The translations under genes were made by a program, and so were the position numbers. A stretch of DNA of 64,000 nt from Ridgeia piscesae (lineage: Eukaryota; Annelida; Polychaeta; Sabellida; Siboglinidae): NCBI GenBank assembly GCA_025642075.2, contig JAODUO010000117.1:1-64000 (forward strand), given 5' to 3'. The notes below the pieces were generated by a model that made no database searches, was not told the origin of the DNA, and saw only the letters and a list, made by a program, of their open reading frames with translations. This document shows positions 1 to 60,920 of this stretch, in pieces (within the stretch, counting starts at the first letter, position 1; every line of letters starts with the position of its first letter).

Positions 1-725
1 AATTTTTTAAAAACTGACAGTTGAAACGGCGGGTAACCATGGAAGGAATCTCAAGGCGAACCTCCAACCCCTTTGGGGGGAGGAGGAAGTCTGATTTCCC
101 AGTGCTTCAACAGCGAAAGGAGTTTACTCTCCTCCCGACCATGGTTACCAAAAATAAATTACACCGATCTACACCCTATAACACCCTAACATTTAACCGA
201 TAATTGTGAATAAAGTCACTGTAACGTAAGTTCGGCAGCCGCTTCATTAACTTGAATTGAATCCGACGTCTCTTCCCTTGCGACTGACGTTCAATATGAA
301 AGGCTCTTCGAGTTTCCAATCCGATAGCCGTATTGCGCGCGTCGTATAGTTTGCAGGGCCTATAGTCCACATCTCGATGTTATCGTGGCCGTTTACTACA
401 ACAACATTGAAGCGATATAATATTAAGGGTATCAATAACGAGCAGCTATAGACGGCGAGGAAGAAAACGACAAAACAATTAAGAAAACTAACCTGCCGCG
501 GATCCATTTCGCTTAGGTATACATCTTACGCCCTTCTCGTTGTCTCGTTGTTGGGCCGAAACCGCAATCAGGTGACGACTAATTGTGAGAATTCGCAGTT
601 GCGCAACGCGCAACTTCCTGACAAAGCAGTGACCTTTTGAGCATGCGCCAATTCTTATATTTCCATTGCGTGTTCGTTCGCGGATGCGTTCGCGTATTTC
701 TGTGTATTCGTGTTATTTTAAAACC
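1..725. repeat. 3' part of a ~4.03-kb tandem unit (copy 0)
   Basis: This block matches about 9045-9763 and 13080-13796, the ends of the two complete units downstream. It is more diverged and has short indels: the minus-strand frame starting at 507 is broken relative to its later copies. It is cut at 726 by the TTAA transposon, and the unit sequence resumes at 5741, so copies 0 and A were adjacent before insertion. Confidence 0.93.
247..507 (-). pseudogene. Diverged copy of the tandem-unit minus-strand ORF starting MDPRQ
   Basis: Minus-strand frame from the ATG at 507. It begins MDPRQVSFL and runs through a hydrophobic stretch (FLAVYSCSLLIPLIL) like its copies at 9205-9540 and 13239-13574. 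Small indels near 320-330 shift the frame, so it ends after 86 codons instead of 111. A GT donor-like site follows the fifth codon (CAG then GTTAGT), so the ATG may be a tiny first exon and the rest intron. The function is unknown. Confidence 0.4.
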
Positions 726-729
726 TTAA

Positions 730-820
730 AGGGCAAAAAAGGCAACGGTTTCGTGGTGTACACCTAATAGAGTTAATATAAAGTAACAATTTCCACATAT
801 ACTAAATTTTTTAACGCCAG
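730..820 (+). repeat. Left terminal inverted repeat of the TTAA transposon
   Basis: It begins AGGGCAAAAAAGGCAACGG and pairs with 5645-5736 across its whole length. The outer ~25 bases are almost perfect, and the inner part carries scattered substitutions. Confidence 0.9.
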
Positions 821-974
821 CCGTTTACCTGAAAATTTTTTTTGAACACCCAGCCATCGAAATACTATGAGCTACGCCATTGTCGACGAAGAATGAGGTC
901 AGTAAGCTTAGGCTTCTCCAGTGATTAGTTATTCATAAATCCGGCTAGAGGCGCTGTGCGCAGAGAAAAATAAA

Positions 975-2897
975 AATGGCGTGTTTGTTATGGATTATCT
1001 AAATCGGATCATTTAACGGATGCAGAAGTATCTGGATATAGATTCTAGCCCAAAGACAAACACGTATTGGAAGATACACAGAGGCGAGTGACCACGAAAA
1101 GAAAGACACACGGGAAGTGAACGTAAAAAACAAAACAGCAGAGACGGTGTCAACTGGTGGGGGTGCCGAACCAATTTTTTGGGTGACAAGTTTGTCTGCT
1201 GTCATGAAATGGCTGCAACTGGCAACGCGCGGAGCTTTTATGAAAGGGAAATATTAAGTTGTCTATTATTGTTTTTCTTAAATATTATTATCCTGAGGTC
1301 CGGGCTTGTAATGATCGTATTATTATGCAAGCGAAAAGATCGCTTAGCTTAAACCCTTGCCGCCGGGCCACCTCAGTGACCTCAGGCTCAGACTTGCCGC
1401 ATTCAACTATTAGACTAATAGGTCATTATTACGTTTTAGGTAATAACACATTTGTTAAGACTTGGTGGGGTTTTTCTTTTAAAATAAATCGTATTAATAG
1501 TTCCAATAAAAATTTAAAAGAATTAGGTCCCACAATTGTGCAGGGTGTCAATTGTGGAAACAAATCCATATAAATGAATAGTCAATACCTTGCTGATTTT
1601 TTGCATCGCCCAGGTGTGGACATCCATCACATTTGTAATAACAGCAGCTATATTGATTCATATATCATGATCTAAATGCACCGCCTACACAGCAATGGCA
1701 GGCAGTTACGATTATTTTATTTGAACATAAACTGCAGGGTTATCTTCTCATCATTTTGCATGTGTCTTATGGAGTCATATATAAACATAGATAATGAGTT
1801 TGTTTCAAAGAACCCAGAGATATTAGTGACGAGATGAATACAGGAAATGTGTCAGAATTCATGCTTTGTGAAATTCACATAAAACATTTCTTAATGTTCG
1901 ATTTTTTATTACAGGTGGACTGCTGTGTATTACGAAACGTCGGATTTGAAATTCTCTGCTTCGAGCAACTGGTGCTTCGGAATGTATTGGTTGCACTGAA
2001 CCATATACAGATAGATAACTGGCAACTAGATCCATCAACAAACAAGTAAGTATACTGTGCATACATTTTATATAATTATGTTGCAATAAACGTTAATGCA
2101 TCAAATAAGAAGCAACAATACAACATCAAACAAAGTAGCACTATAAATAAAAAAATTAATAGTTATCATTACTTATAGATACAACACATGGAACCATTAT
2201 GATTTTTATGTAGTGAAAATGGCAGGTATATTTGTAAACATTAACAGTTAATTATAGTGCCTAGTCTTTTCACAATAATAATCTAATTGACATTTTCTCT
2301 GGTTATCCATTATGAGATGACAACCCAAATATGTGAATGCAGGGACTGGAGTTGTCATTAGAGGTTTTAGACAAGATGTTTATGTTTGACAGCTTTCAGA
2401 ATGGTTCAATCAAATTAATAAACATTTCTTGAGCTTACTAGCAATACCCTAATTAATTTTATTCCAAATTATAGAAATTGATCCTCAATGGTTTCTAATG
2501 CCACACAGCGGTTTAAAAGTGCATAGTGTCAACATTAGATGCAATATGCTATAATACTGCCACACATTTATAAAAAATCTTAAAAAGCACCACATGTTTG
2601 AAATGGGGTGTGTCTTTAATTATATATTTTAAATTAAAAGCATCATTGATTAATTTTCATCTTATTTACAATGTCATATGTATATTTATCTGAACACGTT
2701 TATTTCAGGTTGCTCAGGTGGGCTGTCTATAAGCAGTTTACTGGTGGGTTCACAGCAAGTTGGGCCGGAGTGTTCATCGAGTACTGCCAGCATGCACCAG
2801 CCACCTAATCAGGACAAAGTTCCCTGTCCTCGCTTGGAGAGCAGCACGAGGGATATCACTTTGCTCTCAAAGACTTGACTAATGTACAAAACGATTG
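975..2897 (+). pseudogene. Broken spliced gene encoding a P2X7-type C-terminal (ballast) domain
   Basis: In animals this cysteine-rich zinc-binding cytoplasmic domain (P2XR_C) ends the P2X7 receptor and also occurs in stand-alone invertebrate proteins. The first coding block, about 975-1260, shows GYRF then P after an in-frame stop, NWWGC, and FVCCHE, which match the YxFEP, WCxC and CC motifs. The second exon is 1915-2045, between a TTTTTTATTACAG acceptor and a GTAAG donor, and reads CVLRNVGFEILCFEQ. The third exon starts at 2709 and reads LLRWAVYKQFT. Then, one base out of frame, it reads HSKLGRSVHRVLPAC and LIRTKFP, matching the conserved ARY-x-QF, LGR and IP-x-C / IR-x-FP blocks. A nonsense codon near 1047 and a 1-base loss near 2741 show that this copy is dead. 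There is no P2X channel domain upstream. The exon 1 donor is unresolved. The domain call is by eye. Confidence 0.78.
2254..2560. repeat. Dispersed repeat copy, inside a pseudogene intron
   Basis: It starts TGCCTAGTCTTTTCAC and contains ATTTTCTCTGGTTAT. It matches 4085-4180 and 57665-57760. Its later part (AGAATGGTTCAATCAAATT onward) matches 58745-58915. The family is unidentified. Confidence 0.6.
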
Positions 2898-3876
2898 AGC
2901 CATGCAGCCCGCAGATCTTCCTTACTCGGTTTTGGCACATTTGCCCCGATCAAGCAACCCCTGTTGGTACAGTGATTAGTGGCAGTGTAACTTTTCCCAT
3001 CACCATATGGATTATGTGGCTCATCACCATGGGTAGACGGTTATGTCGGACTTGTGTTCTGTTGCGCAACCTCCAGTTTAATCATTGTTTCTCGAAGATG
3101 ACATCTGTGTTAACAGGGATGCCTGGGACAGGACGTGGCCGATAGTTCCCCGCAAGAGCAGATAACATCAATCGTGATTTCATTCCTACAATGAATATAG
3201 TGCTTGCATTAACTGATTAGTATTTAGACAACTTTGCAACGTTTTTCTACATGATTATAAACATGTACTATTTTTTGTAATTTCATTTGATAATCATGTA
3301 AGAAGTCATTGTTTTAGTAACCAAACATTAGCCAAATTAGTAACCATAAGTTAAATAACAACACATTGACCAGGAATTCCACTATCACATTCCACTCCCA
3401 ATTATCACTTGTTGTTCTAATCTTAATGTTTCACTTTGTATCATGTATATACAGTGACTGTATTTTTATATTATATTTTAATACATTCAGTGATAATGAC
3501 GTGTTATTTATTTTATTTTATCAAAAACAGAGAAGTTATTAATTACACAAGTAGCTGTATTCATAAGTGTACACAGTAACTGTTTACAGCTGTGTTTTAT
3601 CCCCCCATGACACAGTTACTAGGAGTTCATTCAAATGCCATGCCTGTATTATCTTAGAAATATGAAGCAATACTGCAATTACTATGTGCTACTTTATACA
3701 GCTTGGTGCAATGTGAAGAGAACTGTACAAGCAAGGATTCAAATGCAACTTATCGCAAAAGTCCCCTTGTCGCAAAAGTCCCCTTGTAGTTACGACTGCT
3801 GTCATACCTTCATAGAAGTGCTGTATCTTGGGGCAGATAACTCTGATAGACCTCCACCTGTCCAGTATGACAGAAT
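2898..3876. other. No gene seen; interior of the TTAA transposon
   Basis: AT-rich sequence, probably 3'-untranslated or spacer. Open frames at 2882-3145 and 3635-3880 have no recognisable protein features. A short direct repeat (CGCAAAAGTCCCCTTGT, twice) lies at 3756-3790. Confidence 0.5.
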
Positions 3877-5296
3877 TTAGTGAGCTAGGCTTCCAGAAAG
3901 TGCCGTGCTGTGATGACTGACTTCAGGCAGGGCATTGAATGCTGCTGAACTTTGCTCCAGATACATTGTCGTATCTTCTTCCTCAACAATTGCAGCATAT
4001 GCACATGCGTGTGGATGCCACAATGTGATACAGGAGTGACAATCACTGTTTTCTGTAACCAACAACAAAGGAACGTGAAATAATTAATTGCATCATCACC
4101 TAATTGGCATTTCCTCTGGTTATTCATATGAGATTACCAGAAAGTGAGAAACACAGCCATATTGTGAGAATGCAGCAGACAATATCAATCAAGTGTATGA
4201 ATTTTCACTATATAATTATCTAAAATAAAACTTATCACTTACAGGTGACAATAGATCTTTAACCAGTGGATACCGACGTCACATCTAAAAAGCTAATAAA
4301 ACATCAAAATAAACACAACTTGTTGCAGATAAAATGAGTAGTTTAAATGAAGATTTAGTTTAAAACATGCATGCAGCTACTGTCCATGGATTTCAAACAA
4401 TCATTGAATTCCACCAGCCATTAAACAGTCATAAATACTGCTACTCGAAGGTGAAACTAATTTTGAAAGTGGGGTGTCAAAGTGCATGCAGAAACTTGAT
4501 AAAATTATGATAAATATAGTCAGATGTGTATCTCATAATTGCAAACTAACAGAAAAATGCAACTAACAAAACTTTGTAAAAACTTAATGTTTAAATAAAT
4601 ACTGACTGAATTTCTAGTTTTCAGCATCATAACATTTTCATTGTTTCTTAGCACATATCTGAACACACTGATCATAAGCTTTACTAGCTGTATTTAATCA
4701 ATGTCACCTTACTCTAACATAGCCTACATTCACATCAATGGAAATAAATGACTATGTCACTATGAGCGGTTAGTTAACTTTACTGAACTTACAAAGAAGT
4801 GCCAACGACAATCCAAGGCCACTGTCCCTCCGCCGATGACATATTATCACCCATGAGACGTGTCATGTTCAAGTTCAGTTATTCAAGTTTCTTCTAAAGG
4901 CAAAATTATTTATTTTGCATTGTACTAAATTCTGCGATGATATAAATTGTGTCATTGTCCTAGCTTGGTTCAAGTATATCTTAGTCTTTACACATGTGGA
5001 CGTGATACCGTAAAAACAGATTAGCTGTCATCGAGGGACATCGGCATCGGGCATCGTCAACACATCGATGATCGAGCCATCGGCATCGTCAATCGATAGC
5101 CGGTCTACGGAGGTCAAAACTACTTTTAACAGCATAAAAACGTTACATGTGCTTGACGTCTGTAAAAAACACAATTAAATACAAACGTTATAACACAGAA
5201 AAATAGTACATCATACTAACCTTCTTGCGATCTGATCATTGATGTCTCGGCCAGCTTGATATATGCGTTGCTTCGACGTTTAGCCTTTAGGTCCAT
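3877..5296 (-). CDS. Small two-exon gene of unknown function in the TTAA transposon (83 aa)
   Basis: I do not recognise this protein. Exon 1 is 5296-5221: ATG, then MDLKAKRRSNAYIKLAETSM, ending in phase 1 at a GTTAGT donor. Exon 2 is 4052-3877, after a GGTTACAG acceptor, and starts with the two bases that complete the codon. It reads ENSDCHSC, then a Cys/His-rich stretch (HPHACAY), an acidic patch EEED, and stops. Total length is 83 residues. The junction keeps the frame and exon 1 is rich in basic residues, which supports a real gene. Exon 2 lacks similarity to anything I can name, and further exons could lie in the 1.17-kb intron. The gene runs toward the P2X7-like pseudogene. Its upstream 300 bp look like a promoter. 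Confidence 0.45.
4085..4480. repeat. Second dispersed repeat copy inside the TTAA transposon
   Basis: The shared core is CACCTAATTGGCATTTCCTCTGG, followed by stretches resembling 57700-58080 (for example AACATCAAAATAAACACA). It lies in the intron of the small minus-strand gene. Confidence 0.6.
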
Positions 5297-5640
5297 CCAT
5301 GGCTAAATATTGTCAGCACTGCCCCGGGTTTAAGAAGACGACGGTCGGCGACGTTTTGTTGGATTTTGTTCCATCAACTGGTGATATATGTCTACTTCAT
5401 AATTACTTGTTGACCACAGATTTAGGTCTAAGCAGCTGCTACATCGCCAACTAAACGAAGACTCGAAGTTGTTGTGCCGTACTGACGTCACAGGAAGCTG
5501 AACGGCCTCAGCAGAGACTTAGAATACCGCGCGCTTATAGGCCAGGCCAAGCCAAACGAATACGTCACCGGTTAAGATGGTGGTGTCTAGGCCATCATGG
5601 ATTTCGTTAGATTTTTAGACTAAGGTCACATTCTGAGTAA
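5297..5640 (-). promoter_or_regulatory. Promoter-like region for the small minus-strand transposon gene
   Basis: Just upstream of the minus-strand ATG at 5296. It contains a CRE-type TGACGTCA at 5483-5490 next to CAGGAAGC (ETS-like), a GCGCGC tract, and AAGATGGTGG (YY1-like) near 5575, in locally GC-richer DNA. This is inferred from motif content only. Confidence 0.35.
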
Positions 5641-5644
5641 ACCG

Positions 5645-5736
5645 CTGACGTTAAAAAATTGAGTATATGTGGAAATTGTTAGTTTGTATAAACTCTATTA
5701 AGTGTATGATACGAAACCGTTGCCTTTTTTTGCCCT
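5645..5736 (-). repeat. Right terminal inverted repeat of the TTAA transposon
   Basis: It ends TTTTTTTGCCCT directly before the TTAA at 5737-5740 and mirrors 730-820. Confidence 0.9.
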
Positions 5737-6031
5737 TTAACCTTTCACCCAAGAAGGTGGACTTTTGGGACACTGTCCGCGAGAGAAAATATAGAAGACA
5801 ATTCGAGAGCGTACGTGCTTTTATGAGATTTTATTGGATGTGCGCGCCCGCAAGTGTGTGCACCGGTACAATCGAATAAAAACGGGTTATCGGGAGAAAA
5901 CACGTTTGCTTTCGCCACAGGCGTCTATTACAACGTTACCTTCATATCCTATAAATGGTTCAGAACGTATCCAGAAATGCCCACTGCATATATAACATAC
6001 ACTGACAAAGGTGCCGTAGAAAATTCGTGAA

Positions 6032-6346
6032 ATGAGAACATCATATATTCCAAGAAACCACTTTCCTTCCTGTCACCCGTTAATTTCTGTTAAAGCCAGA
6101 GAGTTATTGGTCGTGATAATATCACCAATAAAAATACATATGTGTCACTACGCCGAAGAACCGCAGTGTCCTCGCACTTACACTAGTTTGACAGCTGAAA
6201 TACCGATCTGGCTGAACAGAAACGTAACTTCTATTGACATAACACAACACAAGACATCACCAGTCCTCACAGACGTTCAAACAACCTGCATACTGCTGAT
6301 GCGTTTGCGAACTCTTTCGTCGGTTACTGGGCTAATGACCCCTTAA
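6032..6346 (+). CDS. Conserved 104-aa plus-strand ORF of the tandem unit, copy A
   Basis: Open from ATG to stop without indels in all three copies (also 10054 and 14030). It begins MRTSYIPRNHFPSCHPLISV. Most differences between copies change amino acids, so conservation may only reflect young duplication. No domain, signal peptide or membrane segment was recognised. Confidence 0.25.
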   Translation: MRTSYIPRNHFPSCHPLISVKARELLVVIISPIKIHMCHYAEEPQCPRTYTSLTAEIPIWLNRNVTSIDITQHKTSPVLTDVQTTCILLMRLRTLSSVTGLMTP

Positions 6347-7025
6347 TATCGCGATATAATTTCTCGCTCGTGGGCACAGAGCACATTTGATTTTCCCATT
6401 GGAGGCCATATTAACGTTTTGTCGATTATAAAGAAACTGTACCAGAGAAATGTTATGTTATGCTCATTGCATTTCGTCAAAATCACATAGCACTAGCTCT
6501 TTTGAAATGCAAGTATGTGCGTTGTCCGTCAATTGTTGACCACATTTACCACGTATTTCTGCATCCGCAGGGTCGTATATTAAAAAGGTAAAAAACCGTT
6601 ATGCTAATTAAACACTTCCTAACATGCGTCATTACACTGCAGATACATCGTAGCAATTACCCTACTGGTGTGTCTGCTTTCTTGTACCCATTTCACTTCA
6701 AAATGGCTATTCAAACGTTTAAGTAACACAATTCTTTGGGTAACACTTTCACATGGGTCAGACCAGGAAGTCTAAATGTCTTCTGACCCCCTCGTCGTAG
6801 TCGGTCAATGGGGTGCAACCATATCACGGTGCCCGACACATTTCTCGCATCTAGGAGAAACCTGGCAGAAAATCAAAGAATAGCTAGTAAGGTCGTCGGA
6901 CGGACGAAACCTGCAATTCGCTACTGGCATCACTTGGCTCAATATTATTTCCAAACATATTTTAGTGACAGCTACTTGTTTATTTCAATATGGGATTAAA
7001 TAAACTCGTTATGGGCAAGGGGAAG

Positions 7026-7352
7026 TTATAAGACGACCGAAGGAGCACACGTGTCCCTGTTGTCGCGTGTGTACACTGCGCTTCCGATGTGATGCTCTGT
7101 CGGGGTGAAGTAATTCCGCTTTGACATGTCGCAAATAGTCAGCGGGCCTTGTCGCCAGCCAGCTATGACGGATATAGCCACACTGTCGATCTGTTTCTCG
7201 TCCGACACTTGTACAATATGCCTGCTTAGAAGTGTTCGTGATTGTCCTTGAAACAACTGGCTGCGGGAAACTATGGGCGCAAGGGTGTTCACCGGCTTCC
7301 CTACCACCGACATACTGAACTGGTCCGATGAGGCTTCTTCGTCGTCAACAAT
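7026..7352 (-). CDS. Terminal exon of an unknown minus-strand gene, unit A
   Basis: A long pyrimidine tract and GATGCAG acceptor precede the exon. It reads IVDDEEASSDQFSMSVVGKP for its first residues and stays open for 108 codons to a stop at 7026. The composition looks like protein (acidic start, then GWRQGPLTICDM), and the unit B copy at 11046-11372 differs at one residue. A candidate preceding exon lies at about 7390-7484 (reads TIIGP, then HHMSR), but its donor is not clear and the phases were not reconciled. I cannot name the family. Confidence 0.4.
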   Translation of the reverse strand: MVDDEEASSDQFSMSVVGKPVNTLAPIVSRSQLFQGQSRTLLSRHIVQVSDEKQIDSVAISVIAGWRQGPLTICDMSKRNYFTPTEHHIGSAVYTRDNRDTCAPSVVL

Positions 7353-8097
7353 CTGCATCAAAAAAGAAAAAAAGAAAAAGGAAGTCTCAATCGCCACACG
7401 GAAGATCGTAGACCATCTTGAAGTACTGCATGTATATGGTGGTGAACCGGCTCATATGATGGGTTGGCCCTATTATAGTGACATCTGCCAAAATTAAATG
7501 ACATAGTAGCTTGTAAAGTATCGTATAGTTTATTTTTATAACTTGTTCGGTAATAAATAATGTCAATGATATAATATTATAATAGAGCGATCGTCTCATC
7601 TTTGATAATTTGAATTTCAGTTGGGAGTAGCCGAACGCACTAACTATGCCTACATTTTCGTAACTGATCTATTTAAAGGTTATTTTTGGTGAAATAGAGC
7701 AGTTGTAATAACATGTGTGCACATACGGGCGGCGCTATATTGTGAAGAGTGCTGAACCGTATCTACAACATGACACGACATCGACGTGAGACGTGTTGAC
7801 CTTTTTCACGGCGACGTTACCAATTTCTCGGTCGTCGGATATTGACATCGGAAGACAAGACGGGGACACTGCATTGGAGGGGGGTGGTAGTGATTTGACA
7901 CCTGTTCGTTTACAACTGAAGAATGTTTATGGCGGTAAGTCTAGATGTGGTGGGGGAACTTAACCTTCGAAGCGTATATGGGCTACGTTATTCTAATGAA
8001 AACAGTGTGAGGCACAATTGCGACGATCTATCCCTCAACACACCCTAGATATGTCTATGGTCAAATATATCTGTCCGTAGCGTCGATTACCCAGGCT

Positions 8098-8112
8098 CCG
8101 TGAGGTGGCAGC
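8098..8112 (+). promoter_or_regulatory. CTCF-like motif 1, unit A
   Basis: CCGTGAGGTGGCAGC contains the complete AGGTGGCAG core of the animal CTCF consensus, with two or three mismatches in the 5' half. Same orientation as the second motif 273 bp downstream. Confidence 0.4.
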
Positions 8113-8370
8113 ACTTTTCAGACCCTCAACTCTGCCAACACTAATGGGCTGCAGTTGTAACAGCCAGGGCGGCTTTACCCAAGATTAGGGTAGAGATGCT
8201 GATTGGTTCTCAGGCCGAATTTGAAATAACAAATTAAATAAGTATACCTTTTATAAGATAATGTTCTATTATAAAATATACAAAATTAAACTTATATTAA
8301 CACAAAAATAATTATAAATAAAATGTGTAGTAGTTTATCAAATCGAAATTACGGCAGGATTAGCCAGTAT

Positions 8371-8385
8371 CCGTGAGGTGGCAGC
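8371..8385 (+). promoter_or_regulatory. CTCF-like motif 2, unit A
   Basis: An identical 15-base motif to the one at 8098, in the same orientation, with different flanking sequence (TAGCCAGTAT upstream). Confidence 0.4.
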
Positions 8386-9204
8386 ATTGGTTAGCCCAAA
8401 CGGATAGCATTCAAACGCTGGTAAAATCACCAGACTGTCTTTTCGGCGTAGTTCCGCAACCGGCCGACAGTCGGTTAAACGAAACTAATCCATCCAAAGA
8501 TGCATAACCGTAGTCCAAGTAGTCGTGCTCGTTATTCTGTCCAGCTTACATCTTTGTTGCACTAGTCAAAAGTAACTGTAGTCGTTGATCTTTGAACTTG
8601 ATTGATCCGATGGTTCTCTCACCTCTCCACGAAATATTGTATTACTACCAGATCTGGTGTTTTCTCGGACTTCGCGGTGCTAACTACAACGATTTGATAA
8701 AGATTCACGGTGAACTATCATACTGCTTACTACGTACATACATCTCAACGGGTCAAATTTTAGCAAAACTCAATATAGTTTGCGTGAAGATGTAGACCTG
8801 TATAATTGTGGTCACGGTGCATTTTCGAAGTAGTCATTTCGCTCGGGTCGTGTATCTCTAGGTCTGTACGGCCTTCGTTCGACTGAATAACGCTTCGAAA
8901 GAAAAAATAGGTATACCACATGTTTCATTTTTTCAAATTTATTACTTAACAAAATGGTACATCGAATGACGAAAAAGGCACCGTCAACAATCAACCAGTC
9001 ATTTAGATTAGATATGAAACATATCTGGTTAAAATAACTGACAGTTGAAGACGGCGGGTAAGCCATGGAAGGAATCTGCAAGCCGGCGAACCTCCAGCCC
9101 CTTTCGGGGAGGAGGAAGTCTGATTTCCCAGTGCTTCAACAGCGAAAGGAGTTTACTCTCCTCCCGACCATGGTTACCGAAAATAAATTACACCGATCTA
9201 CACC

Positions 9205-9540
9205 CTATAATACCGTAACATTTAACGTCCGATAATTGTGAATAATGTCACTGTAACGTAAGTTCGGCAGCCGCTTCATTAACTTGAATTGAATCCGACG
9301 TCTCTTCCCTTGCGACCGATGTTCAATATGAAAGCCTCTTCGAGTTCCAATCCGATATGGCCGTATCGCGCGCGTCGTATAGTTTGCAGGGCCTATAGTC
9401 CACATCTCGATGTCATCGTGGCCGTTTACTACAACAACATTGAAGCGATTTAATAGTAAGGGTATCAATAACGAGCAGCTATAGACGGCGAGGAAGAAAA
9501 CGACAAAACAATTGAGAAAACTTACCTGTCGCGGATCCAT
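9205..9540 (-). CDS. 111-aa minus-strand ORF with a membrane-like segment, unit A
   Basis: Starts MDPRQVSFLNCFVVFFLAVY. Residues about 8-30 are strongly hydrophobic, like a signal anchor, followed by a basic C-terminal half (RSQGKRRRIQFK). A perfect GTAAGT donor follows codon 5, so the ATG exon may be only MDPRQ with the rest intron. The copies at 247-507 and 13239-13574 show amino-acid changes and a frameshift, which argues against strong constraint. The upstream block (9560-9700) looks like a promoter for this strand. Confidence 0.35.
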   Translation of the reverse strand: MDPRQVSFLNCFVVFFLAVYSCSLLIPLLLNRFNVVVVNGHDDIEMWTIGPANYTTRAIRPYRIGTRRGFHIEHRSQGKRRRIQFKLMKRLPNLRYSDIIHNYRTLNVTVL

Positions 9541-9559
9541 TTCGCCTAGGTATACATCT

Positions 9560-9700
9560 TACGCCCTTCTCGTTGTCTCGTTGTTGGGCGGAAACCGCAA
9601 TCACGTGACGACTAATTGTGAGAATCCGCAGTTGCGCAATGCGCAACTTCCTGACAAAGCAGTGACCTTTGCGCATGCGCCAATTCTTATATTTCCCGTG
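9560..9700 (-). promoter_or_regulatory. Promoter-like block of the tandem unit, copy A
   Basis: Immediately upstream of the minus-strand ATG at 9540. It holds CACGTG (E-box) near 9604, a palindromic TTGCGCAATGCGCAA, an ETS-like AACTTCCTG, and TGCGCATGCGCCAAT (NRF-1 plus CCAAT-like) near 9670. The same set is present at 525-665 and 13590-13735. This motif combination is typical of TATA-less animal promoters. Confidence 0.45.
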
Positions 9701-10053
9701 GGTGTACATTCGCGGGTGCTTTCGCGTATTTCTTTGTGTATTCGTATTATTTTAAAACATTAACCTTTCACCCTAGAAGGTTGACGTTTGGGACACTATC
9801 CGCGAGAGAAAATATAGAAGACAATTCGAGAGCGTACGTGTTTTATGACATTTTATTGGATGTGCGCGCCCGCAAGTGTGTGCACCGGTACAATCGAATA
9901 AAAACGGGTTATAGGGAGAAAACACGTTTGCTTTCGCCACAGGCGTCTATTACAACGTTGTCTTCATGTCCTATAAATGGTTAGGAACGTATCCAGAAAT
10001 GCCCACTGCATATATAACATGCACTGACAAAGGTGCCGTAGAAAATTCGTGAA

Positions 10054-10368
10054 ATGAGAACATCATATATTCCAAGAAACCACTTTCCTTCCTGTCACCC
10101 GTTAATTTCTGTTAAAGCCAGAGAGTTATTGGTCGTGATAATATCACCAATAAAAATACATTTGTATCACTACGCCGAAGAACCGCAGTGTCCTCGCACT
10201 TACACTAGTTTGACAGCTGAAATACCGATCTGGCTGAACAGAAACGTAACTTCTATTGACATAACACAACACAAGACATCACCAGTCCTCACAGACGTTC
10301 AAACAACCTGTATACTGCTGATGCGTTTACGAACTCTTTCGTCGGTTAATGGGCTAATGACACCTTAA
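10054..10368 (+). CDS. Conserved 104-aa plus-strand ORF, copy B
   Basis: Same frame as 6032-6346. It differs at a few residues (HLYHY versus HMCHY; VNGLMTP at the end). Unknown function. Confidence 0.25.
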   Translation: MRTSYIPRNHFPSCHPLISVKARELLVVIISPIKIHLYHYAEEPQCPRTYTSLTAEIPIWLNRNVTSIDITQHKTSPVLTDVQTTCILLMRLRTLSSVNGLMTP

Positions 10369-11045
10369 TATCGCTATACACTTTCTCGCTCGTGGGCACA
10401 GAGCACAGTTGATTTTCACATTGGAGACCATACTAACGTTTTGTCGATTATAAAGAAACTGTACCAGAGAAATGTTATGTTATACTCATCGCATTTCGTC
10501 AAAATCACATAACTCTAGCTCTTTTGTAATGCAAGAATGTGCGTTGCCCGTCAATATTGACAACATTTACCACGTATTTCTGCATCCGCAGGGTCGTATA
10601 TTAAAAAGGTAAAAAACCGTTATGCTAATTAAACACTTCCTAACATGCGTCATTACACTGCAGATACATCGTAGCAATTACCCTACTGGTGTGTCTGCTT
10701 TCTTGTACCCATTTCACTTCAAAATGGCTATTCAAACGTTTAAGTAACACAATTCTTTGGGTAACACTTTCACATGGTTCAGACCAGGAAGTCTAAATGT
10801 CTTCTGACCCCTCGTCGTAGTCGGTCAATGGGGTGCAACCATATCACGGTGCCCGACACATTTCTCGCATCTAGGAGAAACCTGGCAGAAAATCAAAGAA
10901 TAGCTAGTAAGGTCGTCGGACGGACGAAACCTGCAATTCGCTACTGGCATCACTTGGCTCAATATTATTTCCAAACATATTTTAGTGACAGCTACTTGTT
11001 TATTTCAATATGGGATTAAATAAACTCGTTATGGGCAAGGGGAAG

Positions 11046-11372
11046 TTATAAGACGACCGAGGGAGCACACGTGTCCCTGTTGTCGCGTGTGTACACTGCG
11101 CTTTCGATGTGATGCTCTGTCGGGGTGAAGTAATTCCGCTTTGACATGTCGCAAATAGTCAGCGGGCCTTGTCGCCAGCCAGCTATGACGGATATAGCCA
11201 CACTGTCGATCTGTTTCTCGTCCGACACTTGTACAATATGCCTGCTTAGAAGTGTTCGTGATTGTCCTTGAAACAACTGGCTGCGGGAAACTATGGGCGC
11301 AAGGGTGTTCACCGGCTTCCCTACCACCGACATACTGAACTGGTCCGATGAGGCTTCTTCGTCGTCAACAAT
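11046..11372 (-). CDS. Terminal exon of the unknown minus-strand gene, unit B
   Basis: Same acceptor, frame and stop as 7026-7352; one G/E difference (HHIESAV here). Candidate preceding exon at about 11410-11504. Confidence 0.4.
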   Translation of the reverse strand: MVDDEEASSDQFSMSVVGKPVNTLAPIVSRSQLFQGQSRTLLSRHIVQVSDEKQIDSVAISVIAGWRQGPLTICDMSKRNYFTPTEHHIESAVYTRDNRDTCAPSVVL

Positions 11373-12132
11373 CTGCATCAAAAAAGAAAAAAAGAAAAAG
11401 GAAGTCTCAATCGCCACACGGAAGATCGTAGACCATCTTGAAGTACTGCATGTATATGGTGGTGACCCGGCTCATATGATGGTTTGGCCCTATTATAGTG
11501 ACATCTGCCAAAATTAAATGACATAGTAGCTTGTAAAGTATCGTATAGTTTATTTTTATAACTTGTTCGGTAATAAATAATGTCAATGATATAATATTAT
11601 AATAGAGCGATCGTCTCATCTTTGATAATTTGAATTTCAGTTGGGAGTAGCCGAACGCACTAACTATGCCTACATTTTCGTAACTGATCTATTTAAAGGT
11701 TATTTTTGGTGAAATAGAGCAGTTGTAATAACATGTGTGCACATACGGGCGGCGCTATATTGTGAAGAGTGCTGAACCGTATCTACAACATGACACGACA
11801 TCGACGTGAGACGTGTTGACCTTTTTCACGGCGACGTTACCAATTTCTCGGTCGTCGGATATTGACATCGGAAGACAAGACGGGGACACTGCATTGGAGG
11901 GGGGTGGTAGTGATTTGACACCTGTTCGTTTACAACTGAAGAATGTTTATGGCGGAGAGTCTAGATGTGGTGGGGGAACTTAACCTTCGAAGCGTATATG
12001 GGCTACGTTATTCTAATGAAAACAGTGTGAGGCACAATTGCGACGATCTATCCCTCAACACACCCTAGATATGTCTATGGTGTAGGCCTTTGAACCCAAA
12101 TATATCTGTCCGTAGCGTCGATTACCCAGGCT

Positions 12133-12147
12133 CCGTGAGGTGGCAGC
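12133..12147 (+). promoter_or_regulatory. CTCF-like motif 1, unit B
   Basis: CCGTGAGGTGGCAGC, same position in the unit as 8098-8112. Confidence 0.4.
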
Positions 12148-12415
12148 ACTTTTCAGACCCTCAACTCTGCCAACACTAATGGGCTGCAGTTGTAACAGCC
12201 AGGGCGGCTTTACCCCAGATTAGGGTAGAGATGCTGATTGGTTCTCAGGCCGAATTTGAAATAACAAATTAAATAAGTATACCTTTTATAAGATAATGTT
12301 CTATTATAAAATATACAAAATTAAACTTATATTAACACAAAAATAATTATAAATAAAATGTGTAGTAGTTTATCAAATCGAAATTACGGCAGGATTAGCC
12401 AGTATCCGTGAGGTG

Positions 12416-12430
12416 GCAGCATTGGTTAGC
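12416..12430 (+). promoter_or_regulatory. CTCF-like motif 2, unit B
   Basis: CCGTGAGGTGGCAGC, 283 bp downstream of the first motif in this unit. Confidence 0.4.
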
Positions 12431-13238
12431 CCAAACGGATAGCATTCAAACGCTGGTAAAATCACCAGACTGTCTTCTCGGCGTAGTTCCGCAACCGGCC
12501 GACAGTCGGTTAAACGAAACTAATCCATCCAAAGATGCATAACCGTAGTCCAAGTAGTCGTGCTCGTTATTCTGTCCAGCGTACATCTTTGTTGCACTAG
12601 TCACAAGTAACTGCAGTCGTTGTTCTTTGAACTTGATTGATCCGATGGTTCTCTCACCCCTCCACGAAATATTGTATTACTACAAGATCTGGTGTTTTCT
12701 CGGACTTCGCGGTGCTAACTACAACGATTTGATAAAGATTCACGGTGAACTATCATACTGCTTACTACGTACATACATCTCAACGGGTCAAATTTTAGCA
12801 AAACTCAATATAGTTTGCGTGAAGATGTAGACCTGTATAATTGTGGTCACGGTGCATTTTCGAAGTAGTCATTTCGCTCGGGTCGTGTATCTCTAGGTCT
12901 GTACGGCCTTCGTTCGACTGAATAACGCTTCGAAAGAAAAAATAGGTATACCACATGTTTCATTTTTTCAGTTTTATTACTTAACAAAATGGTACATCGA
13001 ATGACGAAAAAGGCACCGTCAACAATCAACCAGTCATTTAGATTAGATATGAAACATATCTGGTTAAAATGACTGACAGTTGAAGACGGCGGGTAAGCCA
13101 TGGAAGGAATCTGCAAGCCGGCGAACCTCCAGCCCCTTTCGGGGAGGAGGAAGTCTGATTTCCCAGTGCTTCAACAGCGAAAGGAGTTTACTCTCTCCCG
13201 ACCATGGTTACCGAAAATAAATTACACCGATCTACACC

Positions 13239-13574
13239 CTATAATACCGTAACATTTAACGTCCGATAATTGTGAATAATGTCACTGTAACGTAAGTTCG
13301 GCAGCCGCTTCATTAACTTGAATTGAATCCGACGTCTCTTTCCTTGCGACCGATGTTCAATATGAAAGCCTCTTCGAGTTCCAATCCGATATGGCCGTAT
13401 CGCGCGCGTCGTATAGTTTGCAGAGCCTATAGTCCACATCTCGATGTCATCGTGGCCGTTTACTACAACAACATTGAAGCGATTTAATAGTAAGGGTATC
13501 AATAACGAGCAGCTATAGACGGCGAGGAAGAAAACGACAAAACAATTGAGAAAACTAACCTGTCGCGGATCCAT
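13239..13574 (-). CDS. 111-aa minus-strand ORF with a membrane-like segment, unit B
   Basis: Differs from the unit A copy at one residue (GSANY versus GPANY). The fifth codon is followed by a GTTAGT donor-like site, so the same doubt applies about whether the bulk of the frame is exon or intron. Confidence 0.35.
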   Translation of the reverse strand: MDPRQVSFLNCFVVFFLAVYSCSLLIPLLLNRFNVVVVNGHDDIEMWTIGSANYTTRAIRPYRIGTRRGFHIEHRSQGKRRRIQFKLMKRLPNLRYSDIIHNYRTLNVTVL

Positions 13575-13589
13575 TTCGCCTAGGTATAC

Positions 13590-13735
13590 ATCTTACGCCC
13601 TTCTCGTTGTCTCGTTGTTGGGCGGAAACCGCAATCACGTGACGACTAATTGTGAGAATCCGCAGTTGCGCAATGCGCAACTTCCTGACAAAGCAGTGAC
13701 ATTTGCGCATGCGCCAATTCTTATATTTCCCGTGC
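13590..13735 (-). promoter_or_regulatory. Promoter-like block of the tandem unit, copy B
   Basis: Same CACGTG, TTGCGCAATGCGCAA, ETS-like and GCGCATGCGCCAAT motifs as 9560-9700. Confidence 0.45.
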
Positions 13736-14029
13736 GTGTACATTCGCGGGTGCTTTCGCGTATTTCTTTGTGTATTCGTATTATTTTAAAACATTAACCT
13801 TTCACCCTAGAAGGTTGACTTTTGGGACACTATCCGCGAGAGAAATATAGAAGACAATTCGAGAGCGTACGTAATAAGAACGGGTTATAGGGAGAAAACA
13901 CGTTTGCTTTCGCCACAGGCGTCTATTACAACGTTGTCTTCATGTCCTATAAATGGTTAGGAACGTATCCAGAAATGCCCACTGCATATATAACATGCAC
14001 TGACAAAGGTGCCGTAGAAAATTCGTGAA

Positions 14030-14344
14030 ATGAGAACATCATATATTCCAAGAAACCACTTTCCTTCCTGTCACCCGTTAATTTCTGTTAAAGCCAGAGA
14101 GTTATTGGTCGTGATAATATCACCAATAAAAATACATCTGTGTCACTTCGCCGAAGAACCGCAGTGTCCTCGCACTTACACTAGCTTGACAGCTGAAATA
14201 CCGATCTGGCTGAACAGAAACGTAACTTCTATTGACATAACACAACACAAGACATCACCAGTCCTCACAGACGTTCAAACAACCTGCATACTGCTGATGC
14301 GTTTACGAACTCTTTCGTCGGTTAATGGGCTAATGACACCTTAA
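14030..14344 (+). CDS. Conserved 104-aa plus-strand ORF, copy C
   Basis: Third copy of the frame at 6032 and 10054, still open (HLCHFAEEPQ). Unknown function. Confidence 0.22.
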   Translation: MRTSYIPRNHFPSCHPLISVKARELLVVIISPIKIHLCHFAEEPQCPRTYTSLTAEIPIWLNRNVTSIDITQHKTSPVLTDVQTTCILLMRLRTLSSVNGLMTP

Positions 14345-15229
14345 TATCGCTATACACTTTCTCGCTCGTGGGCACAGAGCACAGTTGATTTTCACATTGG
14401 AGACCATATTAACGTTTTGTCGATTATAAAGAAACTGTACCAGAGAAATGTTATGTTATACTCATCGCATTTCGTCAAAATCACATAACTCTAGCTCTTT
14501 TGTAATGCAAGAATGTGCGTTGCCCGTCAATATTGACAACATTTACCACGTATTTCTGCATCCGCAGGGTCGTATATTAAAAAGGTAAAAAACCGTTATG
14601 CTAATTAAACACTTCCTAACATGCGTCATTACACTGCAGATACATCGTAGCAATTACCCTACTGGTGTGTCTGCTTTCTTGTACCCGTTTCACTTCAAAA
14701 TGGCTATTCAAACGTTTAAGTAACACAATTCTTTGGGTAACACTTTCACATGGGTCAGACCAGGAAGTCTAAATGTCTTCTGACCACTCGTCGTAGTCGG
14801 TCAATGGGGTGCAACCATATCACGGTGCCCGACACGTTTCTCGCATCTAGGAGAAACCTGAAGAGTGCTGAACCGTATCTGCAACATGACACGACATCGA
14901 CGTGAGACGTGTTGACCTTTTTCATAGCGACGTTCCCAATTTCTCGGTCGTCGGATATTGACGTCGGAAGACAAGACGGGGGCGCTGCATTGGAGGGGTG
15001 GTGGTAGTGATTTGATACCTGTTCGTTTACAACTGAAGAATGTTTATGGCGGAACGTCTAGATGTGGTGGGGGCACTTAACCTTCGAAGCGTATATGGGC
15101 TACGTTATTCTAATGAAAACATGTCGAGGCACAACTGCGACGATCTATCCCTCCACACACCCTAGATATGTCTATGGTGTAGGCCTATGAAGCCAAATAT
15201 ATCTGTCCGTAGCCTCGATTACCCAGGCT

Positions 15230-15244
15230 CAGTGAGGTGGCAGC
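15230..15244 (+). promoter_or_regulatory. CTCF-like motif 1, unit C
   Basis: CAGTGAGGTGGCAGC; the core is kept although the unit has diverged. Confidence 0.35.
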
Positions 15245-15502
15245 ACTGATCAGCCCCTCAACTGTGCCTACACTAATGGGCTGCAGTTGTAGCCGCCAAG
15301 GCGGCCTTATCCCAGATTAGGGTAGAGATGCTGATTGGTTCTCAGGCCGAATTTGAAATAACAAATTAAATAAGTATACCTTTTTATAAGATAATGTTGT
15401 ATTATAAAATATTCAAAATTAAACTTACATTAACACAAAATTATTAAAAATAAAATGTGTAGTAGTTTATCAAATCGGAATTACGGCAGGATTAGCCAGT
15501 AT

Positions 15503-15517
15503 CCGTGAGGTGGCAAC
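15503..15517 (+). promoter_or_regulatory. CTCF-like motif 2, unit C (degraded)
   Basis: CCGTGAGGTGGCAAC; one core change relative to the other copies. Confidence 0.3.
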
Positions 15518-15760
15518 ATTGGTTAGCCCACACGGATAGCATTCAAACGGCGGTAAAATCACCAGACTGTCTTCTCGTCGTAGTTCCGCAGCCGACCGAC
15601 AGTCGGTTAAGCGAAACTACGCTAGCTGTAAACAACATGTTTAAGGATTTCGTCTGGTGCGACTGAATAAATGTCTAGATGATTGTTAATTGGAACAAAT
15701 AAATATATGATTCTTCAAACTGATATAAAACACAGTTCGACGCTTTGAATTTCATTGCTG

Positions 15761-20126: not shown

Positions 20127-22048
20127 TGATCTCGGCTGCGATATAGCTCAGTGCCGTAAACTAAACGTACACAATGCATGCGTAATAGAGAGGACACGGT
20201 CCGATGCCTTAGACTTAGGCACCTATAATTATAGAACCCAGAGTGCATGGTCAGGCTCCATTCAGTCACGATGCAGACCTTCCTCGGTGCAAGTTACAAA
20301 GATCACAATAGTCCACATTGCATACACATACCTGTGTCTATACTTGTAATTAGTACTGGTGAGACTTCCCGGCTACATTTTCCCGGCTACATTTTCCATG
20401 CATGGCACTTTGTCCAGGCACTTCGGTATGTATTTATCAGCTCATACAATAGGGTCTCGATCTTTACTTCTACAGTTCCCACAGCAGCTGCATTCAACGA
20501 TGGAGTCGGGGGATGTTCCAATATATGGTCTTAGGTCTTAGGTGATTACCTCCAAACAGCCCAAACTTGGGCTAACGCAGGAGTTGTTCTTCTCTATAAT
20601 TTGTGAGTCCACTACAGGTTACACATTTACCCCCTGTGTGGGATCTTTTACTTCCCCTGGCATAGACACCAGATAGAAGGGACCACCGGCTGTTAGTGTT
20701 TCTTCCGAAAGACACAGGCAAATGTGGGGTGAAGAAATTGCCTAAGTTTCGAAACGGCGGTAGGTGGAATTGAACCACCGTCCCCTCGATTGACAGTCCG
20801 GCGCTCTATCGCGCGACCACCGCTCCCCATATGGATAGACACTGCTTATGGCGAAGCCTCTCTTCTCCATCTTGAAGGAGTCATGTGACTGCTCCATCCT
20901 GCTCCTGTAGGCTGCCAAGCCATCCACCTCATGCTGACAGGAGTGACAGCTCTATAGGGCCTGCAAGTGGGTCACGATACATGGCGTGACTCCGCGCGAC
21001 TGGAGCTTATTGGGGACTAAGCGAGACTAATTGGGGACTGGACACAAGAATAATATCCTAACGATGGATGACAGTTGTAGCTTCCGACTGATGAATACTA
21101 GGAAAATCAGTTCATAAATATCTTGTGTTATACGTTTCTTATCTTAAATGTCCGATTTAATATTGAGTTTATCACACTATCATAGACACATTGCGATTTA
21201 CGTAGTGCAGATAATAGATACGATGTTAGGTCGTATGTGTCTTTTACAGGATTTGCGTTTTACATTGCTGTACGTTGTGGTTTCGATAAGCACTTATATC
21301 TGACAAGTTGTCTAAATGCACATAATCATAACACATGTATACGTTTGGCCCAAACAGGTTGTGCTGCGCGAAATACGGCACTCTTCATTATTAGTCAAGA
21401 TCGCCAAACACAAGTACTTGCCGCTATTGCCATGGCAACCACCATAATAATCGATTAAAATTCATGATTTCCGTGATCATTGTCACCGGCAAAATGCTCC
21501 ACTGGTTCTGCTTGTAATAATCCTTCGGACAATATAACTGAAATACGCTATTTCGGGACAGTTCGATTATTACGACCAAAACAAAACAAAGTCCTATATG
21601 TTAACATGGAGTATATGGACCTCCTGCCCCCAACTGCCCCCAGCCTCGTTTTCGCGCGCGAGACTTGCACGCCCTATTGCGTTGCATTCGTTCTGAAGCG
21701 GCCTGTGTCAGGATAGCAGATCGCCTTGATGAGGCTCCTGGCAGGCTTCTCTACTCTTGTCCTACAGACGGCCTTCATCCTGGAAGCTGTGATTCGGCCA
21801 GTGTGGAATCTCCCGCCATTCTTTGCAGTCAGCCTGCTGCCTCGTCCGTTCTTCGAACAGCTGGACTTGGTCATTTGTGACACAAATGGAGTCGTACACT
21901 TGCTCACACTTATGAAACAATTTTCGTCCTTGGACTGATGAAATGCATTTTCATCTCGAAATTCAGATAGTAGCAGTGATTTGTCGAAATATTTTTTTAT
22001 TAAGCTGTCTCGGGACATAACCCTCTGCATAGTCCGACACGAAGGACA
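20127..22048. repeat. 1.92-kb direct repeat, left copy
   Basis: Matches 29295-31239 from end to end in the same orientation, with roughly 25 differences by eye plus a ~21-base insertion near the start of the right copy. It ends GAAGGACA exactly where the internal element begins. It contains a reverse-oriented tRNA-derived SINE. The small open frames inside show amino-acid-changing differences between copies and no known domain. Confidence 0.95.
20540..20830 (-). mobile_element. tRNA-derived SINE, family 1, left copy
   Basis: On the minus strand it begins GGGGAGCGGTGGTCGCGCGA (A-box region). It carries an anticodon-like GTC loop (Asp-like) and a B-box GGTTCAATTCC, followed by a body with CATTTGCCTGTGTCTTTCGG. 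The same sequence is at 29731-30021 (-) and 60623-60920 (+). Confidence 0.88.
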
Positions 22049-22159: not shown

Positions 22160-22760
22160 AGACGTCAATCTTGAGACATCTTTTAGATGTCAAAATTTAG
22201 ACGTCAAAAAGATGTCCTATTTTTGATATCTAAAAGACGTCAAAAATCATGCAACATTTTTACGTCAATCTTGAGACATCTTTTAGATGTCAAAAATTTG
22301 ACATCGAAAAGATGTCCTATTTTTGATATCTAAAAGACGTCAAAAATTATGCAACATTTTAACGTCAATCTTGAGACATCTTTTAGATGTCAAAAATTAG
22401 ACGTCGAAAAGATGTCCTATTTTTGATATCTAAAAGACGTCAAAAATTATGCAACATTTTAACATCAATCTTGAGACATCTTTTAGATGTCAAAAATTAG
22501 ACGTCGAAAAGATGTCCTATTTTTGATATCTAAAAGATGTCCAAAGTCAAGCAACATTTTAACGTCAATCTTGAGACATCTTTTAGATGTCAAAAATTAG
22601 ACGTCGAAAAGATGTCCTATTTTTGATATCTAAAAGATGTCAAAAGTCAAGCAACATTTTAACGTCAATCTTGAGACATCTTTTACATGTCAAAAATTAA
22701 ACGTCGAAAAATCATGCAGTATATAAAACTAAATGATGTCAATATTTTTATGTCAATCAT
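22160..22760. repeat. ~100-bp tandem array with GACGTC-type palindromes (left subterminal)
   Basis: About six copies (near 22170, 22272, 22372, 22470, 22570 and 22671). Each has a GACATCTTTTAGATGTC palindrome and a GATATCTAAAAGACGTC near-palindrome. The last copy decays after 22700. Confidence 0.9.
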
Positions 22761-29294: not shown

Positions 29295-31239
29295 TGATCT
29301 CCGCCCGGTCACGCATGAATGCTCGGCTGCGATATAGCTCAGTGCCGTAAACTAAACGTACACAATGCATGCGTAATAGAGAAGACACGGTCCGATGCCT
29401 TAGACTTAGGCACCTATAATTATAGAACCCAGAGTGCATGGCCAGGCTCCATTCAGTCACGATGCAGACATTCCTCGGTGCAAGTTACAAAGATCACAAT
29501 AGTCCACATTGCATACACATACCTGTGTCTGTACTTGTTAAGAGTACTGGTGAGACTTCCCGGCTACATTTTCCCGGCTACATTTTCCATGCATGGCACT
29601 TTGTCCAGGCACTTCGGTATGTATTTATCAGCTCATACAATAGGGTCTCGATCTTTACTTCTACAGTTCCCACAGCAGCTGCATTCAACGATGGAGTCGG
29701 GGGATGTTCCAATATATGGTCTTAGGTCTTAGGTGATTACCTCCAAACAGCCCAAACTTGGGCTAACGCAGGAGTTGTTCTTCTCTATAATTTGTGAGTC
29801 CACTACAGGTTACACATTTACCCCCTGTGTGGGATCTTTTACTTCCCCTGGCATAGACACCAGATAGAAGGGACCACCGGCTGTTAGTGTCTCTTCCGAA
29901 AGACACAGGCAAATGTGGGGTGAAGAAATTGCCTAAGTTTCGAAACGGCGGTAGGTGGGATTGAACCACCGTCCCCTCGATTGACAGTCCGGCGCTCTAT
30001 CGCGCGACCACCGCTCCCCATATGGATAGTCACTGCTTATGGCGAAGCCTCTCTTCTCCATCTTGAAGGAGTCATGTGACTGCTCCATCCTGCTCCTGTA
30101 GGCTGCCAAGCCATCCACCTCATGCTGACAGGAGTGACAGCTCTATAGGGCCTGCAAGTGGGTCACGATACATGGCGTGACTCCGCGCGACTGGAGCTTA
30201 TTGGGGACTAAACGAGACTAATTGGGGACTGGACACAAGAATAATATCCTAACGATGGATGACAGTTGTAGCTTCCGACTGATGAATACTAGGAAAATCA
30301 GTTCATAAATATCTTGTGTTGTACGTTTCTTATCTTAAATGTCCGATTTAATATTGAGTTTATCACACTATCATAGACATATTGCGATTTACGTAGTGCA
30401 GATAATAGATACGATGTTAGGCCGTATGTGTCTTTTACAGGATTTGCGTTTTACATTGTTGTACGTTGTGGTTTCGATAAGCACTTATATCTGACAAGTT
30501 GTCTAAATGCACATAATCATAACACATGTATACGTTTGGCCCAAACAGGTTGTGCTGCGCGAAATACGGCACTCTTCATTATTAGTCAAGATCGCCAAAC
30601 ACAAGTACTTGCCGCTATTGCCATGGCAACCACCATAATAATCGATTAAAATTCATGATTACCGTGATCATTGTCACCGGCAAAATGCTCCACTGGTTCT
30701 GCTTGTAATAATCCTTCGGACAATATAACTGAAATACGCTATTTCGGGACAGTTCGATTATTACGACCAAAACAAAACAAAGTCCTATATGTTAACATGC
30801 AGTATATGGACCTCCTGCCCCCAACTGCCCCCAGCCTCGTTTTCGCGCGCGAGACTTGCACGCCCTATTGCGTTGCATTCGTTCTGAAGCGGCCTGTGTC
30901 AGGATAGCAGATCGCCTTGATGAGGCTCCTGGCAGGCTTCTCTACTCTTGTCCTACAGACGGCCTTCATCCTGGAAGCTGTGATTCGGCCAGTGTGGAAT
31001 CTCCCGCCATTCTTTGCAGTCAGCCTGCTGCCTCGTCCGTTCTTCGAACAGCTGGACGTGGTCATTTGTGACACAAATGGAGTCGTACATTTCCTCACAC
31101 TTATGAAACAATTTTCGTCCTTGGACTGATGAAATGCATTTTCATCCCGAAGTTCAGATAGTAGCAGTGATTTGTCGAAATAATTTTTTATTAAGCTGTC
31201 TCGGGACATAACCCTCTGCATAGTCCGACACGAAGGACA
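29295..31239. repeat. 1.92-kb direct repeat, right copy
   Basis: Begins TGATCT immediately after the internal element's last base. It carries a ~21-base insertion, then follows the left copy to GAAGGACA at 31239. Beyond this the sequence continues as GAATGATAGGCC without the element. Confidence 0.95.
29731..30021 (-). mobile_element. tRNA-derived SINE, family 1, right copy
   Basis: Duplicate of 20540-20830 within the direct repeat; B-box reads GGTTCAATCCC. Confidence 0.88.
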
Positions 31240-50342: not shown

Positions 50343-60487
<10,145 letters not shown>

Positions 60488-60622
60488 CTCTCATCAAACA
60501 CAAACAATATTTTATACAGCACATGGAGATGGGTGAACCACTGGCAATACTCAACAACAACAGCATACTGCAAACTGAGCATGAACATTTAGTATTTAAG
60601 ACTAATTAATACCAAGACTAAT

Positions 60623-60920
60623 GTGGGGAGCGGTGGTCGCGTGGTAGAGCACCGGACTGTCAATCGAGGGGACGGTGGTTCAATACCACCTACCCGGTAC
60701 CATCGTTTCGAAACTTAGACAATTTCGTTCACCCCACATTTGCCTGTGTCTTTCGGAAGAGACACTAAAAGCCGGTGGTCCCTTCTATCTGGTGTCTATG
60801 CCAGGGGAAGTAAAAGATCCCACACAGCTAGGGGGTAAATGTGTAACCTGTAGTTTACTCACAAATTCTAGAGAAAGACAACTCCTGGGTTAGCCCAAGT
60901 TTGGAGGAAAGCAACTAAGA
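60623..60920 (+). mobile_element. tRNA-derived SINE, family 1, solo copy
   Basis: GGGGAGCGGTGGTCGCGTGG (A-box region), GACTGTCAATCGAGG anticodon arm with a GTC loop, B-box GGTTCAATACC, and the same body as 20540-20830 in opposite orientation. It has an A-rich tail at 60919-60927. Confidence 0.9.

Follow-up and report, generated by a model that had tools for sequence, protein, structure and literature searches.

The stretch of DNA analysed here, hereafter called the window, comprises 64,000 nucleotides of Ridgeia piscesae (contig JAODUO010000117.1, positions 1 to 64,000), and carries an element of 5 kb with inverted ends, TTAA on both sides and the broken remains of two genes on opposite strands; the coordinates of these features are collected in Table 1.

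Table 1. Features of the element and of its insertion site in the window
Feature	Position	Strand	Basis or remark
Whole element, very probably a non-autonomous Kolobok-type DNA transposon	730..5736	.	5,007 bp
Left TTAA target site copy	726..729	.	direct reading; empty sites hold a single TTAA
Right TTAA target site copy	5737..5740	.	direct reading
Left terminal inverted repeat, tip AGGG	730..830	+	end-to-end alignment; genome matches
Right terminal inverted repeat, tip CCCT	5636..5736	-	end-to-end alignment
KolX relic, N-terminal part, two frames	1028..1220	+	tblastn with the KolX frame of L051
KolX relic, open exon VDCC...STNK	1915..2046	+	AG acceptor 1913-1914, GT donor 2046-2047 (splice sites by reading)
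KolX relic, last exon, broken by frameshifts	2709..2895	+	AG acceptor 2707-2708
Transposase relic, C-terminal part, several frames	3803..4087	-	tblastn with L048:2572-3057:-
Possible THAP-domain tail RRLLKPGAVLTIFSH (AVPTIF-box region), weak	5299..5343	-	tblastn with the coral THAP protein P0030
Empty site, single TTAA	9760..9763	.	second copy of the host repeat
Empty site, single TTAA	13794..13797	.	third copy of the host repeat

The element lies in a host repeat organised as a tandem array of ~4.03-kb units (9-15619). Both of its flanks run unbroken through two sister copies of this repeat, which have one TTAA each and no element: the empty copies read AAAACATTAACC, and the junctions of the element read AACCTTAA...TTAACC. 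The TTAA on both sides and the matching empty site in two sister copies, which an earlier sequence-only reading of the window had reported, are both confirmed. The left terminus reads AGGGCAAAAAAGGC and the right one is its near-identical complement, ending in CCCT; the alignment of the two, TTAA included, gave 88.5% identity over 104 columns (E 1e-31), so that the inverted ends proposed in that reading stand and the length of ~91 bp assigned to them is slightly short. Rightward of the element, the host-repeat unit agrees with its neighbour at about 98%, but identity with the two sister copies is only 93% in the ~720 bp on the left side. Elsewhere in the window, at 57670-58857, there are patches 73-86% identical to the interior of the element (window 2258-2306, 4095-4173, 4300-4371 and 2392-2496), with the element ends absent, and these are perhaps an old relative of the element or a shared nested repeat.

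The source genome (628 Mb in 4,875 contigs) was searched with the left end of the element, as the earlier reading had suggested, and many copies were found: 975 candidates appeared at first look, and all of the 40 scored, the window's own included, are at least 97% identical. Among the 39 scored matches other than the window's own, 20 were fetched; one (L012) was too short and 19 were usable, 15 of which have the inverted partner end. The remaining left ends (L015, L027, L030 and L031) show no partner end within ~9.7 kb and stand outside the copy counts; L004-L011, which cover no more than short terminal pieces of eight listed matches, were not counted as copies either. Adding the window's own brings the end-to-end copies to 16. 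Thirteen measure 4.3-6.1 kb; the other three (1.2, 1.5 and 2.8 kb) keep these ends and have lost or rearranged internal sequence. TTAA is found on both sides in 14 of the 16, being imperfect in L017 and L023; the termini are of the RR...YY form, namely AG...CT, in 15 of the 16, the window's copy included, and L023, whose left tip is damaged, begins with AA. The flanks of different copies (32 flanks, up to 100 bp) gave no mutual match at E 1e-4, hence the copies look like separate insertions. A non-autonomous TTAA family, as had been suggested from the sequence alone, is thus borne out, with many genomic copies.

Divergence from the majority sequence ranges from 1.2 to 6.9% among the 13 long copies and is 1.95% for the window's copy; these low values suggest recent movement, and an active source may persist in the genome. 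The left ends of the other copies are 97-98% identical to the window's left end and their right ends 94-100% identical to the window's right end; in the copies where the comparison was made, left ends are only 88-91% identical to the family's right end. Left and right are two different versions, each of them fixed, and since each end matches its own counterpart better across copies, the 12% difference between left and right is not a measure of age. The longest stop-free frame measures 109 aa in the window's element and 94-148 aa across the 13 long copies, which indicates that the "genes" of the element are fragments.

The ends, which the sequence-only reading could not assign, fit Kolobok. Kolobok elements, including those of the Kol0 lineage (Kolobok-1_XT type), are described as having TTAA target duplications and 5'-RR...YY-3' ends, the latter setting them apart from piggyBac (Kojima and Bao 2022, PMC9587614). 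A further likeness is found in the T2-MITE and XKol elements of Xenopus, which according to PMC6004289 share the TTAA target and non-autonomous amplification, and multiply beside Kolobok transposases with THAP, H2CH and DDE motifs. The Kolobok-like T2-MITEs have AGGRR tips; the AGGGC of the element fits AGGR and has C in the fifth place. T2-MITEs are also short, whereas the element is a 5-kb derivative with gene relics.

The relic on the forward strand is that of KolX, the usual second gene of the Kol0 lineage, which is found beside the transposase and has the cytoplasmic ballast fold of P2X7 (PMC9587614); in the element the likeness to this fold is seen at the level of sequence only. Its N-terminal part was recovered as two pieces, 1074-1220 (...FVCCHEMAAT, E 2e-5) and a weaker one at 1028-1090 (VSGYRF.P, E 0.10), the best piece scoring 30.8 bits vs 24.6 for the best of 400 dinucleotide shuffles. 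The open exon that follows has 19 related protein fragments, with identities of 72-98% across the aligned portion, and, as its splice sites read, is predicted to join in frame to the last exon. The read-through of these two exons matches positions 113-187 of PF20478 (P2RX7_C) with E 1e-4 and 22.7 bits; the curated cut-off of this family is 23.5 bits, and the element's relic remains just under it (22.7 and 21.9 bits). L051, a diverged relative from the same genome, agrees with the read-through at 54% of positions in its last exon (E 4e-20) and at 75% over 32 aa in the exon before it (E 4e-14). The N-terminal, middle and C-terminal KolX pieces are present in order and broken, and read as the remains of an intron-containing gene. 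Pfam gave nothing credible on the seven raw ORFs or on the two joined exons; on 133 stop-to-stop frames (at least 24 aa) of the element its best match had E 0.019 and no transposase was found, and against PDB sequences neither the joined exons nor the read-through gave more than chance matches.

The P2X7 ballast is described as a zinc-coordinating cysteine domain (PMC7016195). Its WCxCxxC and CC motifs also occur in L051, and (I/L)PxC...IRxxFP occurs both in L051 and in the last exon of the element; differently from P2X7, no channel is seen in the element, which has a decayed transposon gene instead. Thus the frame of P2X7-ballast type recognised in the sequence-only reading is supported by the PF20478 match of the read-through, and what was taken there for cargo is instead decayed KolX. 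The link between KolX and P2X7 was already published in 2022 (PMC9587614).

The second relic, on the reverse strand, was recognised with a 162-aa frame from the reverse strand of L048, which itself matches P0032, an amphioxus protein (39%, E 7e-21), and P0024 (43% identity, E 1e-22). This frame aligns with the element in four collinear pieces at 4087-3803 (joint E 3e-15 against the element alone), or in three pieces when all loci are searched (joint E 2.9e-13); the best piece scores 42 bits vs 26.9 for the best of 400 shuffles, none of which is as good. The relic carries CPKIQHFYEGM and, around the last catalytic E, HTGQVEVY, to which HTG.LEVYH corresponds in the homologues; an E region of the LEVYH type appears in most rows of the alignment. 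Kolobok transposases are of the DDD/E type, with C/DxxH and a zinc finger ahead of the last E, and DxxH is listed as a signature of Kolobok and its kin (PMC9587614); it is found in the homologues P0032 (DLFH), P0024 (DVWH) and P0034 (DVCH), and is replaced by other sequence in P0026, P0030 and P0031, that is in three of the six rows with letters in this region. Neither of the first two catalytic positions (Asp) of the core was detected in the element. Among the 13 long copies, 12 show the relic in tblastn (E 1e-2 or better), L023 being the exception. The earlier statement that the cargo includes no recognisable transposase must then be revised, as the C-terminal part of one can be recognised.

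The motifs of these transposases comprise DDE, a THAP domain with AVPTIF box and H2CH (PMC6004289). Two coral proteins have a THAP domain attached to the homologous C-terminus, and the possible THAP tail of the element is 10/15 identical to P0030, a weak match (joint E 0.004); with the THAP query the best score anywhere in the element is 26.2 bits vs 24.6 for the best of 400 shuffles. The Kolobok identity of the transposase is putative, being drawn from motifs described in the papers. The only Pfam hint of a transposase is P0024 against PF20700, a Mutator-like family, at E 0.057, below the cut-off. A protein search with the relic returned 13 fragments of 79-203 aa, and none of the eight read is a complete transposase. 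P0037 is no evidence of an intact gene: it has W at the stops of the element, taken for TGA read as Trp in prediction. The predicted structure of the homologue P0032 is poor, with a mean pLDDT of 47.8.

Further KolX loci were found by a PF20478 search of the genome, which gave 19 matches, all over the cut-off, and none in 14 control genomes; these are the loci L032-L050, which do not include the window's own relic; from the KolX frame of L033 it can be seen that they keep the orientation of their contigs. One of them, L048 (contig C3273), which in extended form is L051, is the diverged relative of the element mentioned above. Seven alignment rows, five interior and two at the ends, relate L051 to the family at 68.7-74.6% identity; its left end has AGGG beside TTAA (L051 3314-3321), the end regions agreeing at 70% over 100 bp (E 4e-7), and its open N-terminal KolX frame contains GYRFQP, WCHCGKC and VCCQE and matches PF20478 just under the cut-off (E 7.9e-5, 23.1 bits). 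Both in the element and in L048/L051, KolX on the forward strand and the transposase on the reverse strand lie tail to tail, and the same holds for L050 and L045; this arrangement at some of the PF20478 loci (L048, L050, L045) suggests that several different Kolobok families coexist in the genome. An autonomous partner with these ends was not found in the genome with the left end and PF20478 as queries, and L052 (3.6 kb, on the wrong side of the KolX locus) has no recognisable intact transposase. In viral contigs the exact 18-base end pattern gave three matches, none continuing like the end of the element; relatives of P0008 in the genome contigs and of P0002 in the viral contigs were not found.

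Of the features that distinguish Kolobok, the element has the TTAA target site, the tips and KolX, and those of the transposase can be traced only partly, in the relic and in its homologues. We consider it very probable that the element is a copy of a ~5.1-kb non-autonomous Kolobok family of the Kol0 (KolX-bearing) type. It shares with the Kol0 lineage the two genes, transposase and KolX (PMC9587614), and differs in that both genes are broken, the family is non-autonomous and the inverted ends measure ~100 bp, a comparison made with the published description. The possibility of a novel family, raised in the earlier reading, may be retained only for a new sequence family, and not for a new kind, the kind being Kolobok. 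The family was probably moved in trans, and its history may have begun with a two-gene Kol0 ancestor in which both genes were intact and which then lost its coding capacity. An autonomous partner at another place in the genome would supply a THAP/DDE transposase that still recognised the ~100-bp ends; this enzyme would cut copies out and paste them at TTAA, and the crippled form would thereby have multiplied recently.

A piggyBac-type element would share the TTAA target site, and such families are reported in PMC9587614; however, piggyBac differs in tips and in type of transposase, and here the tips AGGG...CCCT are of the 5'-RR...YY-3' form that separates Kolobok from it (PMC9587614), the transposase relic matches proteins of the H2CH/LEVYH type and no piggyBac domain is among the Pfam matches listed at E 0.3 for the 133 frames, so that this origin is highly improbable. 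Slightly less probable still is a transposon that took up a P2X7-like gene of the host as real cargo. Such a capture would agree with the resemblance of the cargo to the P2X7 ballast and with a length of 5 kb, which is long for a non-autonomous copy, but KolX adjoins the C-terminus of the transposase tail to tail not only in the element but also in L048/L051, L050 and L045, no P2X channel domain is listed among the 133 frames, and KolX is a normal gene of Kol0 elements (PMC9587614). Least credible of all is a new TTAA mover devoid of a DDE transposase, with KolX-like or other small frames as the moving protein, since the absence of an intact transposase from all 13 long copies (longest stop-free frames 94-148 aa) is set against a transposase relic in 12 of them (L023 excepted) and a KolX that is broken too, so that gene decay combined with assistance in trans appears to describe the family.

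The assignment to Kolobok gives a place to a TTAA transposon that seemed unassigned and whose insertion is cleanly recorded, and adds one more case of the P2X7 ballast domain as second gene of a DNA transposon. A bolder proposal, which we regard as rather unlikely, is that the genome holds a currently active KolX-bearing Kolobok, the transposase of which acts in trans on the asymmetric ends of the 5-kb family and moves it, with KolX required for the reaction; if this were true, the ancestral job of the P2X7 ballast domain would be directly testable.

Other repeats and genes are present in the window. A 1.9-kb stretch occurs twice in the same orientation, at 20131-22048 and 29322-31239, the copies being 98.8% identical and 9.2 kb apart, and part of it recurs inverted at 60621-60904 (~90%). 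A 100-bp tandem unit is repeated 5.5 times at 22162-22710, with 95% matches, and also matches itself in inverted orientation. On the reverse strand, 36151-36958 contains two adjoining frames which, by motif, we presume to resemble a non-LTR reverse transcriptase; for one of them Pfam gives only a weak match to another family. Finally, a 494-aa open frame at 44678-46162 contains cytochrome b5, molybdopterin oxidoreductase and Mo-co dimerisation domains, as in a protein of the sulfite oxidase type.
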